Shown piece by piece: positions 26,229-31,310 of a DNA stretch of 64,000 nt (position 1 is the stretch's first letter; each line of letters opens with the position of its first letter). A program made the position numbers and the translations under genes. The notes under the pieces were generated by a model. That model was not told the DNA's origin and made no database searches. It was given only the letters and a program-made list of their open reading frames with translations. Source of the DNA: Pseudonocardiales bacterium (lineage in GTDB: Bacteria; Actinomycetota; Actinomycetes; Mycobacteriales; Pseudonocardiaceae); assembly GCA_023252195.1 (NCBI GenBank), contig JAHEXI010000006.1, positions 186,001-250,000 of the forward strand. Reading direction: 5' to 3'.

Positions 26229-26831
26229 CTAGCGAGTACCCCCGACAGCTCCGATAGCGTCCAACACATCCTCAGCCACCTCGTCTGGACGGCGACCGTC
26301 GGTGGCCACCTCGACAGTGGCGACCTCCCGGTACAGCGGTAACCGGGCGTTGAGCAGGGCAGCGAACGTCGCCCGTGGGTTCACCCCGGCGAGCAGCGGG
26401 CGAGCGGTGGACAATCCGGTGCGGCGCACCCCCTCGGCCATCCCGACGGACAGGAACACCACGCGGTGCCCGTGAATCCTGCTCCGCGATCGCTGCGAGA
26501 GCACCGCTCCGCCGCCCAACGCCAGCACTCCGTGGCGCCCGGCCAGTGCGCCCGCCACCTCGGCTTCCTCAAGCTGCCGGAACACCGGCTCCCCGTCGGT
26601 GATGAAGATTTCGGAGATGCTGCGACCCGCGCGGGCGACGATGAGATCGTCGACGTCGGTGAAGTCGACCCCGATCCGGCCCGCCAGCAACCTGCCTACT
26701 GTGGACTTACCAGCCCCGGGTGGACCCACCAGCACCACGGCGGGTCCCTGCGCGTCGCTCACAGCGACAGCGTAGTCGGCAAACCGCGCTGGGTCCCGCA
26801 ACACAAGGACTTCTCCGGGGCCCGTTGTCAT
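26229..26831 (-). CDS. aroK: Shikimate kinase
   Basis: AroK phosphorylates shikimate. The P-loop is VVLVGPPGAGKSTVGRLLA. Substrate-binding residues lie in FTDVDDLIVARAGRSI and GDGEPVFRQLEE-like sequence, and GVLALGGGAVLSQ and the lid STARPLLAG are present. The start is uncertain. The ATG at 26831 overlaps the stop of the upstream serine-hydrolase gene as ATGA. A GTG at 26804 follows GGAGAAG and would give a more usual N-terminus; a further GTG at 26762 begins right at the family core. In related genomes aroC directly precedes aroK, whereas here four unrelated genes lie between them. Confidence 0.94.
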   Translation of the reverse strand: MTTGPGEVLVLRDPARFADYAVAVSDAQGPAVVLVGPPGAGKSTVGRLLAGRIGVDFTDVDDLIVARAGRSISEIFITDGEPVFRQLEEAEVAGALAGRHGVLALGGGAVLSQRSRSRIHGHRVVFLSVGMAEGVRRTGLSTARPLLAGVNPRATFAALLNARLPLYREVATVEVATDGRRPDEVAEDVLDAIGAVGGTR

Positions 26832-27862
26832 GCTGCGGCGGCTTGATGCTCCCGGATGAGGGTCTTGAACAGGGAGTACGCGGTGTGAATCATGTTACGG
26901 CGACGGGTTGGCATGGTATTGACCAGTGCGGCGACGCCGGTGACTGCCTGCGGGCAGAAGCCGACGAAGGCAGTGAAGCCACGAGTTCCACCGCTGTGGA
27001 ACAGCACCTCGCCGTAGCGGGAACTACGGTGGTTCCACACCAGGCAGATGCGATCTTTACCCTTGGCGGCCACTCGCGGCACTTGGGTTGCGCGTAGGGC
27101 GGCGGCCAGCGGGGTGGCCTCTGGGCGCAGGTGGGCTTGCAGGTAGCGCAGCAGGTCGGTAGCGCTGGAGCGCAGTGTGCCCGCCGGGGCGAGCGCACCC
27201 ATCTCCCACGCCGGCACCGGCCGGCCGCGGCGGTAACCGGTGGCACACAGGGGCCCAGGCCCGGTGAGGGTGCCGGCCATACCGAGCGGGCGACAGACGC
27301 GGTCGAGGATCAGATCCCGGTAATCGGCTGCGGCGGAATTGGCGAGTAGTTGTCCGAGGAGACCCACGCCGAAGTTGGAATAATGCACGTGGGTTCCGGG
27401 GTGGCGCCGAGCCCGGATGCGGGTGGTGGCCCGGTAGAGGTCGTCGAGGTGGTAGCGGGCGTACGGGTTGGTCGTCCAGACCGGTAGTGCCTGCAGGTAG
27501 AGGTTGGCCGGCAGGCGGGGAAGCCCTGCGGTGTGGGTGGCCAGCTGCACCAGGGTGATCGGCGCGTCGGTGGTGCGGCGCGGTCGGGCCTCGGGCGGTA
27601 GGTAGGCGGTGATCGGGTCGTCGTAGCTGATCTCGCCGCGGGTGACCATCTCGGCCAGCAGCAGCGCGGTGAAGGTCTTGGTGATCGAGCCGAGCTCGAA
27701 GACGGTGTGGGCATCCGGTGCGGGCTCGCCGTGGCAGGCGACAGCAGTCTCTCCGCCGACGACAGCGGCCAGGACCACGGCCGGCGCGCGGACGAGCGCC
27801 GAGATCGTGCGCAGCGACGCATCGAGTCGCCCCGGCAGGTCGGTGGCCGGATCGGTGGTCAC
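26828..27862 (-). CDS. Cytoplasmic serine hydrolase, beta-lactamase (S12/class C) family
   Basis: This is a 344-residue penicillin-binding-fold serine hydrolase. All three active-site motifs are present: S59-x-x-K62 in ELGSITKTFTALLL, Y161-S-N163 in HVHYSNFGVGLLG, and H289-S-G291 in LFHSGGTRGF. The enzyme should therefore be catalytically competent as a peptidase, esterase or amidase. There is no signal peptide or transmembrane helix, unlike secreted beta-lactamases and DD-peptidases, which implies a cytoplasmic substrate. The GTG start overlaps the stop of the helical-protein gene upstream as GTGA, and its own stop overlaps the aroK start as ATGA. It is the last gene of the cassette placed between aroC and aroK. 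A role in processing the small peptide encoded at the head of the cassette is an inference only. Confidence 0.85.
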   Translation of the reverse strand: MTTDPATDLPGRLDASLRTISALVRAPAVVLAAVVGGETAVACHGEPAPDAHTVFELGSITKTFTALLLAEMVTRGEISYDDPITAYLPPEARPRRTTDAPITLVQLATHTAGLPRLPANLYLQALPVWTTNPYARYHLDDLYRATTRIRARRHPGTHVHYSNFGVGLLGQLLANSAAADYRDLILDRVCRPLGMAGTLTGPGPLCATGYRRGRPVPAWEMGALAPAGTLRSSATDLLRYLQAHLRPEATPLAAALRATQVPRVAAKGKDRICLVWNHRSSRYGEVLFHSGGTRGFTAFVGFCPQAVTGVAALVNTMPTRRRNMIHTAYSLFKTLIREHQAAAA

Positions 27863-28788
27863 CGGGTGGCCTGGGCGCCGATCCGGCGGGACACGGCCAG
27901 GGTACCGGCGATCGCGGCGACGATCGTGGGGTGGTAATGCTCGCGAAACGCCTTAGCGGCATCGGTCGGCACGCGTTCGGGACCGGTGGGAAGCAGGCCG
28001 TCCGGCTGCTGGGCGCGGGCCAATGCCTCCCAGGCGTGGGGATGGCAGTCGGGTTCGGTCAGGCACAGATCGACGATCAGTAACTCGCCGACCAGATCCC
28101 ACTGGCCGGCTTCGAGGTAGACCTCCAGCCAGGCCGGCAGCCAGGCATGCAGATAGGTCTGCAGGTGAGGCGGCAGATCGTCCGCGCGGGCACCCCAGTC
28201 GGTGAGGTGGAACACCGCGTGGGTCACCGCATACAGGGTGAAAAAGTCGATCGCCCACGGTTCGGGTGTACCGCCAAGCCAGGTCCGGGCAGTCAGCGCG
28301 GCCGGATCGCCCCGGTGCGGCAGGCCGAGCAGGCGCTCGGCATTGAATATCGCCAGCGCCCGGTTGGGGACCACCTCGGTCACGCGGGCCGCGCGCAGGC
28401 CGCTCAGGTGCGCTACCAGCTCGTCCAGCCGCGGATGCCGGTGACCGGTCCGGGCGAACCAGGCATATGTCTCCGTCGGGAAGGTTTCGATCGGTTGCTC
28501 GCGCTGCAGCTCATAGAGCACGTCGCCGTCGCGGAACTGCGCCCAGGCGAAGGCGGCCAGCGCGGGGGCGAGCTGCGCCTCCCGGCTGCCCGCCGCGGCC
28601 TCGCGTATCGCGATGGACACGGTGAGCGCCAGCTCGCCCAGGGGTTTGATGTCCTCATTGGGCCGCAGCCGGTCGGAGGCGACGTCGACCGGCAGCGCGA
28701 AGTGATCCCGGGCCGCGTCCAGCCAGCCCAGCGCGCGCACCGCGACCTGATGGGCTGTGGCAACCCAGGAGGGCCTGACGTCACGCAC
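27859..28788 (-). CDS. Helical protein of unknown function, DUF6895-like
   Basis: This is a 309-residue protein predicted to be mostly alpha-helical and cytoplasmic. I see no catalytic motif I can name. Conserved-looking features are RPNEDIKPLGELALTVSIA in the first third, FPTETYAWFARTGHRHPRLD in the middle, then DFFTLYAVTHAVFHLTDWG, which has paired His residues, and VGELLIVDLCLTEPDCHPHA. The two His/Asp-rich segments could bind a metal or be an active site. The pattern resembles actinobacterial DUF6895 proteins, an assignment made from memory. Its GTG start overlaps the preceding gene by 8 bases and its stop overlaps the serine-hydrolase start, so the products are probably made in fixed ratio. 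Confidence 0.7.
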   Translation of the reverse strand: MRDVRPSWVATAHQVAVRALGWLDAARDHFALPVDVASDRLRPNEDIKPLGELALTVSIAIREAAAGSREAQLAPALAAFAWAQFRDGDVLYELQREQPIETFPTETYAWFARTGHRHPRLDELVAHLSGLRAARVTEVVPNRALAIFNAERLLGLPHRGDPAALTARTWLGGTPEPWAIDFFTLYAVTHAVFHLTDWGARADDLPPHLQTYLHAWLPAWLEVYLEAGQWDLVGELLIVDLCLTEPDCHPHAWEALARAQQPDGLLPTGPERVPTDAAKAFREHYHPTIVAAIAGTLAVSRRIGAQATR

Positions 28789-29533
28789 CGGCCCCGCCCC
28801 CCAATCCGTATCGGGCTATCGCGATCTCCAACTGCAGCCGTGGGTCTGCTCCGGCGACGAGCTCCAGCTGGCGCAGCACCGGCTCGACCGCAAACGGCGG
28901 ATCCATCGGGACCTCACCGCCGGAGGCAAGCCAGCGGGCCAACCGGGCTGCGGTCAGGTAGTCGCGGCGCAGCATGGCCCTGGTTACCCCGCGAGCCACA
29001 TCCAGCCGGTATCGCCGCGCGTCGGCGTGGAGGGGGCCGTCCAGTCCGGGTGTCGCCAGCGGGGACAACTGCGCCAGCACTCCCCCCCACGCCAACCAAC
29101 CCTGGTCGGGGCTGACACTTGCGCCGGGACGCGCCGGGTAGGCGCGGGCGGAGCCGGCCACCCCGAGACGGGTGAGCACCTCACCGGTGGCCCAGTCCCG
29201 CAGTGCCCGCACAAGCACTGTGTTATCGGCGTCGTCCGTTGCGTCTGGGTCCAGCTCGGAGGTCGGGAACATCTGACTGCCGGTCTCGACCACCTCGGCG
29301 TCTTCGGGACCGAACTGGTGACCTGCCAGCGCGAACGGCGCGAGTGCATCCGGGCCGAGCACCCGCACCGCGGCCAATCTCGCCCGGCACTCTGCGGGGC
29401 TGCCCTCGGCGACGAGCTGGCCAGCCAGCTGGAATGCGTCGTCCGCGCCGGTCAGGGCGCGGACGACGCTGCCCGCCAGCGTCTCTACCGCCGTCGCGTA
29501 GACCGCCCGCGGCGGCCCAGAGATCACTGGCAT
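28781..29533 (-). CDS. Unknown helical protein of the aroC-aroK cassette
   Basis: This is a 250-residue cytoplasmic protein that I do not recognise. It begins MPVISGPPRAVYATAVETLA and is mostly helical, with an acidic stretch in the middle (LDPDATDDADNT). Its C-terminal half (YRLDVARGVTRAMLRRDYL, LARWLASGGE, LRQLELVAGADPRLQLEIAI) is reminiscent of helical-repeat scaffolds. No signal peptide, membrane helix or nucleotide-binding motif is seen. The ATG at 29533 is four bases beyond the stop of the 67-residue peptide gene, with the ribosome binding site inside that gene. It overlaps the next gene by 8 bases. Placement directly after a short peptide suggests it may bind or modify that peptide. 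This is inference. Confidence 0.7.
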   Translation of the reverse strand: MPVISGPPRAVYATAVETLAGSVVRALTGADDAFQLAGQLVAEGSPAECRARLAAVRVLGPDALAPFALAGHQFGPEDAEVVETGSQMFPTSELDPDATDDADNTVLVRALRDWATGEVLTRLGVAGSARAYPARPGASVSPDQGWLAWGGVLAQLSPLATPGLDGPLHADARRYRLDVARGVTRAMLRRDYLTAARLARWLASGGEVPMDPPFAVEPVLRQLELVAGADPRLQLEIAIARYGLGGGAGA

Positions 29534-29537
29534 GCCG

Positions 29538-29741
29538 CTAGTCCTCGTCGTCCGGCGGCTCGCTCGGCGAAACCAGCAGCGCACCCAGAAGTAACAGGCA
29601 TGCCTCCCCTCTCGGCACGTACAGCGGCGGCCGCCCCACCATGCTCTCCGACGGGGCCATCAGCTCCGTCACGGCGGCCTGCTCGGGCGCAGAGGCCACC
29701 AGTCCCCTATCAACCGGACGCGTTACCTGTCCTAGTCTCAT
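29538..29741 (-). CDS. 67-residue peptide at the head of the aroC-aroK cassette
   Basis: This short gene starts at the ATG at 29741, preceded at seven bases by AAGGAG, which makes it very likely translated even though the frame is open further upstream. The product runs MRLGQVTRPVDRGLVASA, then an Ala/Glu/Ser segment, then RPPLYVPRGEACLLLLGALL and an acidic Pro-rich tail ending PPDDED. There is one cysteine (position 48). The hydrophobic LLLLGALLV stretch is too short for a certain membrane helix. It is the first gene of a coupled operon with two unknown helical proteins and a cytoplasmic serine hydrolase, a layout reminiscent of ribosomal-peptide precursor clusters. No radical SAM, lanthionine or YcaO enzyme is nearby. 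Confidence 0.6.
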   Translation of the reverse strand: MRLGQVTRPVDRGLVASAPEQAAVTELMAPSESMVGRPPLYVPRGEACLLLLGALLVSPSEPPDDED

Positions 29742-30020
29742 ACTGGGTCTCCTTGTACTCGATTGCCACCCCAACACAAGGGCTGCGATCGTTCGGGTGC
29801 GATCTTTTGGGACCCCTGTGCCGTTGGCAGTAGGCGGCATTGATTAGGCTGGCACAACACCACCTCACTACGTGGACCTTCCGACCGAAATTAGGTAGTC
29901 AGAGGCTGCTTTCTAGGTAGTTTCGACCAAGTAGCCAGCGGGTCCAACAGGCTGTTAGCGACCTCGATCGTCGAATCCCCCAAATCTCCGATTTAGCTCA
30001 GCAGGGCCGCGATTGAGTGG

Positions 30021-30131: not shown

Positions 30132-31310
30132 TCAGTGCAAGTGGGAGGTGTCGAGGTAAGACCGGACATTGCGGACTGTCTCGGGCAAGGCGTCGCCGCC
30201 GAATTTCTCCAGCACGGCGTCGGCAAGCACGAGGGCGACCATCGCCTCGGCCACCACACCCGCGGCGGGCACCGCGCAGACGTCGGAACGCTGGTTGATT
30301 GCCACGGCCGCCTCGCCGGTGGCGAGGTCCACTGTGGCTAGCGCGCGAGGGACCGTGGAGATCGGCTTCATCGCCACCCGGACGCGCAGCACCTCTCCAT
30401 TGGTCATGCCGCCTTCCAGACCACCGGCGCGGTTAGTGCGCCGCACCACCCCGTCGGGCCCAGGCAGCATCTCGTCGTGAGCAGCGCTGCCCCGTCGGCG
30501 CGCGGTGGCGAACCCGTCGCCGACCTCCACACCTTTCATCGCTTGGATGCCCATCAGCGCGCCGGCCAGCCGAGCATCCAACCGACGGTCGGCGTGGACG
30601 AAGGAGCCCAACCCCACCGGGAGCCCATACGCCACGACTTCGACCACGCCGCCCAGCGTGTCACCGTCCTTTTTCGCCGCGTCTACCTCGGCGATCATCG
30701 CGGCTGAGGCATCCACAGTGAACGCGCGGACCGGACTGGAGTCGATCCGCTCCAGGTCACTGGGTCCGGGCAGCACATCCGCGGAGGCGTCTACCTGTCC
30801 CAATGACACCACGTGGGACAGCACTTCGACGCCCAGCGCCTGGCGCAGGAACGCCTTGGCCACGGTGCCCAGCGCGACCCGGGAAGCGGTCTCCCGGGCA
30901 CTGGCCCGCTCCAGCACCGGCCGAGCGTCGTCGAAGCCGTACTTGGTCATGCCGGCGAGGTCGGCGTGCCCGGGCCGGGGCCGGGTCAGCGGCGCGTTGC
31001 GGGACTGTGCGGCCAGCACGTCCGGGTCCACCGGATCGGCCGCCATCACCGTCTCCCATTTGGGCCACTCGGTATTGCCGATCCGGATCGCCACCGGACC
31101 GCCCAACGTCCGGCCGTGCCGGATACCCCCGAGGACATCGACCTCGTCAGCCTCGAACTTCATCCGCGCCCCGCGTCCATAACCGAGGCGGCGGCGGGCC
31201 AGCTCAGCCTGGATGTTCTTCGTGCTCACCTCGACTCCGGCGACCATGCCCTCCATCACAGCCATCAGAGCGGGACCATGCGATTCCCCAGCAGTGATCC
31301 ACCGCAACAT
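30132..31310 (-). CDS. aroC: Chorismate synthase
   Basis: AroC is the last shikimate-pathway enzyme; it eliminates phosphate from EPSP using reduced FMN. The 392-residue protein begins [18 protein letters not shown] with signature 1. It has [17 protein letters not shown], and the later signature regions [12 protein letters not shown] and [10 protein letters not shown]. Length is normal. It stands alone here: the expected aroK follows only after a 390-bp gap and four inserted genes, and upstream lies the nitrogen island instead of the prepilin peptidase gene. Confidence 0.96.

Follow-up and report, generated by a model that had tools for sequence, protein, structure and literature searches.

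A four-gene cassette beside aroK in a Pseudonocardiales bacterium couples a conserved short peptide to a DUF6895 protein and an S12 hydrolase and may be a small peptide-modifying pathway

The window analysed here is a 64,000-nucleotide stretch of a Pseudonocardiales genome (assembly GCA_023252195.1, contig JAHEXI010000006.1, positions 186,001 to 250,000). On its minus strand lie four coupled genes, flanked by aroC upstream and by aroK downstream. They encode a short peptide, a helical protein that we call hel1, a protein of family DUF6895 and an S12 serine hydrolase, and together they may form a small pathway of the ribosomally synthesized and post-translationally modified peptide (RiPP) type. 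The features of the locus are as follows (window coordinates).

29538 to 29741, minus strand: putative precursor peptide of class II, 67 aa, ATG start (MRLGQV...LMAPSES...LLLLGALLVSPSEPPDDED).
29749 to 29754, minus strand: ribosome binding site of the peptide gene, AAGGAG, seven bases before the peptide ATG, read from the sequence.
28781 to 29533, minus strand: hel1, 250 aa, all-helical in the AlphaFold2 (AF2) model, with invariant residues and not assigned to any known family or fold; proposed to bind the peptide.
27859 to 28788, minus strand: DUF6895 protein, 309 aa, GTG start (Pfam PF21836; AF2; Foldseek); proposed peptide epimerase.
26828 to 27862, minus strand: S12 serine hydrolase of beta-lactamase fold, 344 aa, GTG start (Pfam PF00144; motifs); proposed D-specific peptidase or transpeptidase.
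26229 to 26831, minus strand: aroK, shikimate kinase (Pfam SKI, E 1.8e-38), joined to the cassette end by ATGA translational coupling.
30132 to 31310, minus strand: aroC, chorismate synthase (Pfam Chorismate_synt, E 4.1e-117), 390 bases from the peptide start.

The four genes are tightly packed. The peptide stop is separated from the hel1 start by 4 bases, and all other junctions are overlaps: 8 bases between hel1 and DUF6895, 4 bases between DUF6895 and the hydrolase and 4 bases (ATGA) between the hydrolase and aroK. The positions, the 4-base gap, the 4–8 base overlaps and the AAGGAG site described in the first-pass annotation of this DNA agree with the coordinates of the open reading frames (ORFs). 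That annotation also counted two helical proteins of unknown function, which is correct for hel1, as it matches no family, and not for the 309-residue protein, which belongs to DUF6895. It had further described the cassette as built into the aro transcript. This applies to the downstream end only, where the hydrolase overlaps aroK; upstream, 390 bases lie between aroC and the peptide gene, and the aro position is not conserved. In this interval no consensus promoter or terminator was found in a scan limited to sigma-70-type sites, and Rfam at its gathering threshold gave no structured RNA in the region.

The gene set is well conserved. We scanned 74 loci, the window included, with hidden Markov models (HMMs) for hel1, DUF6895 and the hydrolase, and wider stretches around the matches were examined for part of them only. 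hel1 is present in 61 loci, and the remaining 13 carry DUF6895 without hel1 ("stand-alone" below). All 61 hel1 loci keep the same order, either hel1-DUF6895-S12 (31 loci) or hel1-DUF6895-DUF6895-S12 (30 loci). A short peptide is encoded upstream of hel1 in every one of them; 58 were found by script, and those of L022 and L135 are intact while that of L140 is frameshifted. A second, spurious script candidate was dropped before counting in six loci (L087, L097, L098, L111, L125 and L134). For a test on held-out data, a class-wide search supplied another 18 hel1 loci, which were scanned with HMMs built from 59 peptides. The gene order is kept in all 18 and the peptide is present in all 18, in 16 by HMM (E up to 0.01) and in two by eye. 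All HMM matches lie on the hel1 strand and precede the hel1 match by 41–174 nt, and none of the loci, with 1832 ORFs in total, gave a second one. The two loci missed by HMM, L226 and L229, carry a divergent third-class peptide. Thirteen of the 18 held-out loci come from the genus of genome G344, some with near copies of training peptides, and five (L222, L223, L226, L228 and L229) from a family absent from the training set.

The ratio of nonsynonymous to synonymous substitution rates (dN/dS) of the peptide gene is 0.11–0.70, below 1 in all 21 chosen pairs, and 0.28–0.70 among close relatives of the window peptide; the pairs of lowest dS, including that of the window and L002 (0.70), carry little information. 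Judged from these sequences, the peptides are under purifying selection. Two named records also list the peptide as a gene, WP_100834351.1 of Kitasatospora fiedleri and WP_040905375.1 of Streptomyces fungicidicus. The window peptide has no match in Pfam, NCBIfam or PADLOC, and five relatives were likewise negative in Pfam and NCBIfam. The first-pass annotation had named two observations that would count against it, hel1 homologues without a peptide and a peptide confined to this strain. No hel1 locus without a peptide was seen among 79 (61 plus the 18 held out), the single frameshifted one being L140, and relatives of the peptide occur in several families with a conserved core on alignment. 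These results bear on the simplest alternative, a chance arrangement in which unrelated genes were inserted in the aro operon and the 67-residue ORF is not a gene. It is true that spurious ORFs abound in the window (92 ORFs of at least 50 aa are listed over 12 kb), and the aro location is lineage-specific. However, because the peptide is conserved in 61 plus 18 loci of several families, with dN/dS below 1 throughout and two named gene records, chance is refuted as an explanation and keeps almost no probability.

The cassette is shared by many soil actinobacteria and recurs in Streptomyces, Kitasatospora and the Pseudonocardiales lineage of the window itself. DUF6895 scores above its cut-off in 6/396 genomes across the phylum and 21/397 of the order (the window's genome counted in both), and in 113/246 genomes of the genus of G344. 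hel1 was found in 23 of 374 genomes of the class and in 66 of 150 sampled genomes of the G344 genus, and each of these 66 has DUF6895 too (matched by eye). We take this genus to be Streptomyces, since its cassettes match those of named Streptomyces plasmids. Some cassettes are broken, with a split hel1 (L135), a frameshift near the peptide end (L140) or a split hydrolase on a Kitasatospora plasmid (L146), by decay or sequencing error; the hydrolase of L022 runs off its contig. Neither a library model nor a literature description of the four-gene set was found in searches of Pfam, NCBIfam, PADLOC and the literature. An anti-phage defence system was rejected, with 0 PADLOC families for the four proteins. 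Clustering of ORFs for conserved genes beyond the cassette was swamped by antisense ORFs, and its result was not used.

Nearly all the peptides share a core, a Leu/Ala-rich hydrophobic run that ends at Ser, usually as SP, and is followed by a charged or Pro-rich tail. A dedicated short gene of this kind, standing beside putative modifying genes and kept across species, is what a precursor gene of a RiPP pathway looks like. Three classes can be distinguished. Class I peptides read ...AALDPAEPDGVFRDSRECAALALLS...LLLSPPTPRPKKG. Class II has the consensus ...LMxEPEAxxSDAPxYxPEAAGxLLxLLLSPKEPKE, to which the window peptide belongs in diverged form. Class III (L022, L086, L091, L135, L226, L228 and L229) combines a Leu/Ala core with a P-(I/V)-E-D motif and then a C-terminal extension of about 15–20 aa. 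Genome G009, a relative of the window in the same genus, has a class III cassette (L022, G009:C251) besides the one adjoining its aroK.

Peptide class goes with the number of DUF6895 genes. A class I peptide stands with two copies in 29/30 loci, and a class II or III peptide with one copy in 29/29. The held-out loci behave the same way (class I with two copies 10/10, class II/III with one 6/6). L135, L140, L226 and L229 are outside these counts, and their copy numbers (one, two, one and one) are consistent all the same. In a tree of 104 DUF6895 proteins the first copies, the second copies and the stand-alone proteins are each separated from the rest by a single branch, which is nearly true of the single-copy proteins as well. 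The exception to the class rule is L097, a class I locus whose single DUF6895 copy groups with the second copies (clade B) and whose peptide lacks the REC-AALAL segment. Since L097 has only a clade-B copy and lacks this segment, it suggests that copy A would act on the REC-AALAL segment and copy B on the LLLSP end.

The DUF6895 protein of the window is a clear family member (E 1.1e-89, 301 bits against a curated cut-off of 23.8). Its AF2 model is all-helical with a predicted local distance difference test score (pLDDT) of 95.9 and resembles an (alpha/alpha)-barrel. The Foldseek neighbors are (alpha/alpha)-barrels such as GH154, AprG, GH105 and drimenyl diphosphate synthase (best E 4.7e-3, probability 1.00, template modeling (TM) score about 0.45); no match reaches E 0.001, and the fold is named from the titles of the matched structures. 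Residues E52, G115, Y186, H190, D231, E235, G264 and H286 are invariant in 69 aligned sequences, which include 10 of the 13 stand-alone ones. Over all 104 proteins, six of these (G115, H190, D231, E235, G264 and H286) are kept without exception, and E52 and Y186 in 103. Such a Glu/His/Asp/Tyr set is as expected for an enzyme, as far as an alignment can tell. N-acylglucosamine 2-epimerases are (alpha/alpha)-barrels too and work with His acid/base pairs, so an epimerase on the predicted DUF6895 fold is reasonable chemically. A lasso-peptide epimerase of the DUF6895 family is reported in the title of one paper (Shi et al., ACS Catal. 2026; reference 371 of PMC13352647).

hel1 shows no significant Pfam or NCBIfam match, with one hit far below its cut-off (E 0.1), and three relatives have no match in Pfam. 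The AF2 model is all-helical with a mean pLDDT of 90.2, and the alignment shows invariant residues. No PDB fold matched it (best Foldseek E 0.45), and we rejected assignment to a known fold. Homology of hel1 to DUF6895 was rejected at the profile level, with an hhalign probability of 0.2%.

The fourth protein is an S12 hydrolase by profile (PF00144, E 1.4e-53, the match spanning residues 19–322 of 344) and by its SxxK and YxN motifs. Among the NCBIfam models AmpH, a DD-carboxypeptidase/endopeptidase, scores highest with 121 bits, which falls short of its cut-off of 266, and class C beta-lactamase comes next (113). The motifs are S59-x-x-K62, Y161-S-N163 and H289-S-G291. In 59 aligned hydrolases from the 61 loci they are kept at S 98%, K 100%, Y 98%, N 92%, H 97% and G 98%, so the intact SxxK, YSN and HSG motifs noted at first pass are confirmed and prove to be conserved. 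The lack of a signal peptide noted there was also seen again, by eye only. The hydrolase is present in every cassette examined and might be the peptidase that removes a leader or tail. Thioesterases of the penicillin-binding protein (PBP) type have a Ser/His/Asn/Lys tetrad, link an L residue at the N terminus to a D residue at the C terminus and carry a C-terminal lipocalin-like domain (PMC11735501). S59, K62, N163 and H289 correspond to this tetrad if equivalence is assumed from the motifs, not from alignment to such an enzyme. The PF00144 match leaves no room for a lipocalin-like domain in 344 residues.

Outside the cassette, DUF6895 is found in other surroundings. A lantibiotic dehydratase (LanB) gene lies within about 3.5 kb of stand-alone DUF6895 in L100, which has a LanC-like gene too, L101 and L149; in L149 the LanB gene and a cupin protein gene are on the opposite strand, on a Cupriavidus plasmid. 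These three are possibly lanthipeptide pathways with an extra epimerase, to go by their gene content. Six further loci of the G344 genus were chosen for absence of hel1, although L186 has one weak hel1 match. A major facilitator superfamily (MFS) transporter gene is directly downstream of DUF6895 in L183 and L187 of this set, and likewise in L088 outside it, and a radical S-adenosylmethionine (SAM) protein gene is about 4 kb away in L184. Two DUF6895 copies stand 1.3–1.4 kb apart in L183, L184, L185 and L187, with a glycosyltransferase-like start (by eye) in L184 and L185. On a Bacillota plasmid (L150, 7362–9281), DUF6895 has an annotated ORF of 86 aa on one side and a protein of 215 aa that Pfam does not match on the other; this may be a Gram-positive counterpart. 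By eye, no peptide-pathway gene was recognised at the other stand-alone loci. The stand-alone contexts are compatible with a peptide-modifying enzyme, without proving it.

The aro genes appear to be bystanders. The cassette is against aroK in only two of the 11 genomes of the window's genus, G000 and G009 (the G009 contig ends before aroC). In G001 and G002 aroC and aroK are separated by roughly 1 kb of non-coding DNA in which no remnants of a cassette could be recognised, and in G005 by about 45 bp. The 1.5 kb upstream of aroK contains no aroC in G003, G004, G006, G007 and G008, and aroK was not matched in G010. Neither the cassettes of G003 and G008 nor the second one of G009 have an aro gene in the stretches examined. 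The aro operon as a functional partner was rejected, and the link looks incidental, since the place of the cassette varies among these genomes. Its position by aroK may at most drive cassette expression. AroK of the window is 89–92% identical to that of G001, G002 and G009 and 39–44% to that of six other genomes of the genus (no match in one), while AroB stays at 86–97% in all nine genomes compared (loci within L151–L160). This split suggests that one lineage of the genus has had its aroK replaced. L155, L156, L158 and L160 have long same-strand ORFs before aroK and no aroC within 1.5 kb upstream, with an asparaginase-like start (by eye) in L156. As these four genomes of the genus show, the region preceding aroK differs much from species to species.

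The first-pass annotation had suggested a peptide-modification or peptide-signalling system of an undescribed type. Its modification half gains support from the peptide in 79 hel1 loci and the DUF6895 family, and the searches above turned up no description of the set. Modification is better supported than signalling, because DUF6895 has a reported epimerase member and lies near lantibiotic dehydratase genes. The reading we favor, to which we give about an even chance, is that the cassette is a complete small RiPP-like pathway in which the peptide is first epimerised by DUF6895 and then cut or cyclised by a D-specific S12 enzyme. The precursor of 55–85 aa would have a recognition part at its N terminus (in class II L-x-x-x-E ... 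S-D-A-P-x-Y-x-P) and, towards the C terminus, the Leu/Ala-rich core ending at Ser, usually SP, plus the charged or Pro-rich tail. hel1 would bind and present it. The DUF6895 (alpha/alpha)-barrel, with its conserved Glu/His/Asp/Tyr set, would epimerise one or more residues of the hydrophobic core, and class I precursors would need the second copy for a second site. The cytoplasmic S12 enzyme could then recognise the new D residue and remove the tail by hydrolysis or aminolysis, leaving a trimmed or cyclised D-containing peptide. The model is attractive because a D-selective S12 enzyme would adjoin a putative peptide epimerase. A more specific version makes the cassette a new RiPP class, widespread in actinobacteria and a ribosomal counterpart of the non-ribosomal assembly lines that employ D residues and PBP-type thioesterases. 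In it DUF6895 epimerises chosen Leu, Ala or Val residues, the D residue lets a cytoplasmic S12 enzyme of DD-transpeptidase-like kind set the tail free and close or transfer the peptide, and hel1 is a new kind of protein for binding precursors; we consider this version unlikely. Under it the near-invariant class I core (LLLSPPTPRPKKG) would speak for a conserved physiological product, for instance a signal or cofactor, more than for a diversifying antibiotic.

The pathway may also be RiPP-like with DUF6895 catalyzing another reaction, such as dehydration, ring closure or isomerisation, and with S12 as a plain leader or tail peptidase. The structural and comparative arguments for peptide modification hold for it in full, a dehydratase, glycosidases, a transaldolase and terpene cyclases are among the fold neighbors of DUF6895, and the window DUF6895 is just 23–28% identical to the ten stand-alone proteins aligned with it. 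However, the sole reaction reported for DUF6895, going by that title, is epimerisation, and class II cores are poor in Ser, Thr and Cys (besides the SP Ser, the window core has one Cys), which offers few side-chain reactions. This proposal is somewhat unlikely. A third possibility is that the peptide is a small subunit or intracellular regulator that binds hel1 or DUF6895, that the complex acts on another metabolite and that S12 is an esterase. The four genes without a transporter, the conserved rather than diversified peptides and the mostly small-molecule enzymes among the DUF6895 fold neighbors are as such a complex would have them. The Pro-rich, charged peptide ends, the three classes that track DUF6895 lineage and copy number, the proximity of DUF6895 to lantibiotic dehydratase genes and the family member titled a peptide epimerase point the other way, and we find it quite improbable.

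Several points weigh against a D-residue pathway of the kind we favor. The chemistry is read from genes alone; what is seen directly is conservation, order, coupling, selection, protein families and the class-to-copy match. This match is clumped on the tree and reflects few independent events, not 40 separate tests. The held-out loci mostly share their genus with much of the training set, 5/18 being from another family. S12 enzymes can be esterases or L-peptide hydrolases. DUF6895 finds only weak matches by fold, the best having E 4.7e-3 and a TM score of about 0.45, and sugar enzymes, as opposed to peptide enzymes, head the list; the stand-alone protein of L106 is without E52 and Y186. The epimerase role comes from the title of one paper, on a protein that may not be close to the cassette clade. 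The four genes include neither a transporter nor a separate leader peptidase, the flanks not having been systematically examined.

The cassette differs from the known systems closest to it. It shares with the lasso-pathway DUF6895 epimerase (Shi et al., known by title) the family name and a ribosomal peptide context, whereas the cassette protein, often present in two copies, is accompanied by hel1, an S12 hydrolase and a precursor family of its own. Lasso enzymes (B1/B2 peptidase, C macrolactam synthetase) gave no Pfam match in the four cassette proteins or four aro neighbors, other nearby ORFs being read by eye, and are absent from the annotated neighbors of L146 and L147. MslH, the epimerase of lasso peptide MS-271, introduces a D residue into a ribosomal precursor and has a calcineurin-like metal-dependent fold (PMC10406935). 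The D residue in a ribosomal precursor, proposed for the cassette, is the likeness; DUF6895 is predicted all-helical (pLDDT 95.9), so the two would not be homologous by fold. S12 DD-peptidases such as AmpH and class C beta-lactamases share family PF00144 and the SxxK/YxN motifs with the cassette enzyme, which differs in having no signal peptide (by eye), in being encoded in a peptide operon and in its HSG third motif, in place of the KTG of class C beta-lactamases. PBP-type thioesterases such as SurE have the same Ser, Lys, Asn and His active site and act on a peptide with a C-terminal D residue; the cassette enzyme has 344 aa and no lipocalin-like domain, and its likely partner is a ribosomal precursor. 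The lanthipeptide-type loci L100, L101 and L149 share the DUF6895 protein and have a nearby LanB (L100 also LanC-like), and an HMM scan found neither hel1 nor S12 in them. Conversely, Pfam finds no LanB in the four-gene set, as a class I lanthipeptide pathway would have; LanB was seen near stand-alone DUF6895 only. What looks new is the gene combination and the precursor and hel1 families, and what is known is DUF6895, with its reported peptide epimerase, and a very common hydrolase family.

If our reading is true, a large share of Streptomyces (hel1 in 66/150 sampled genomes, genus inferred) carries a peptide pathway missed as a whole by the libraries searched, because neither precursor nor hel1 matched a model. 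It would be a compact system for making D-residue peptides from ribosomal precursors, with an epimerase coupled to a penicillin-binding-protein-like peptidase. It would also give a biological role to a large DUF6895 branch and to hel1, a helical protein that matches no fold in the PDB. The class I core is strongly conserved, which suggests that these bacteria have a physiological peptide in common.

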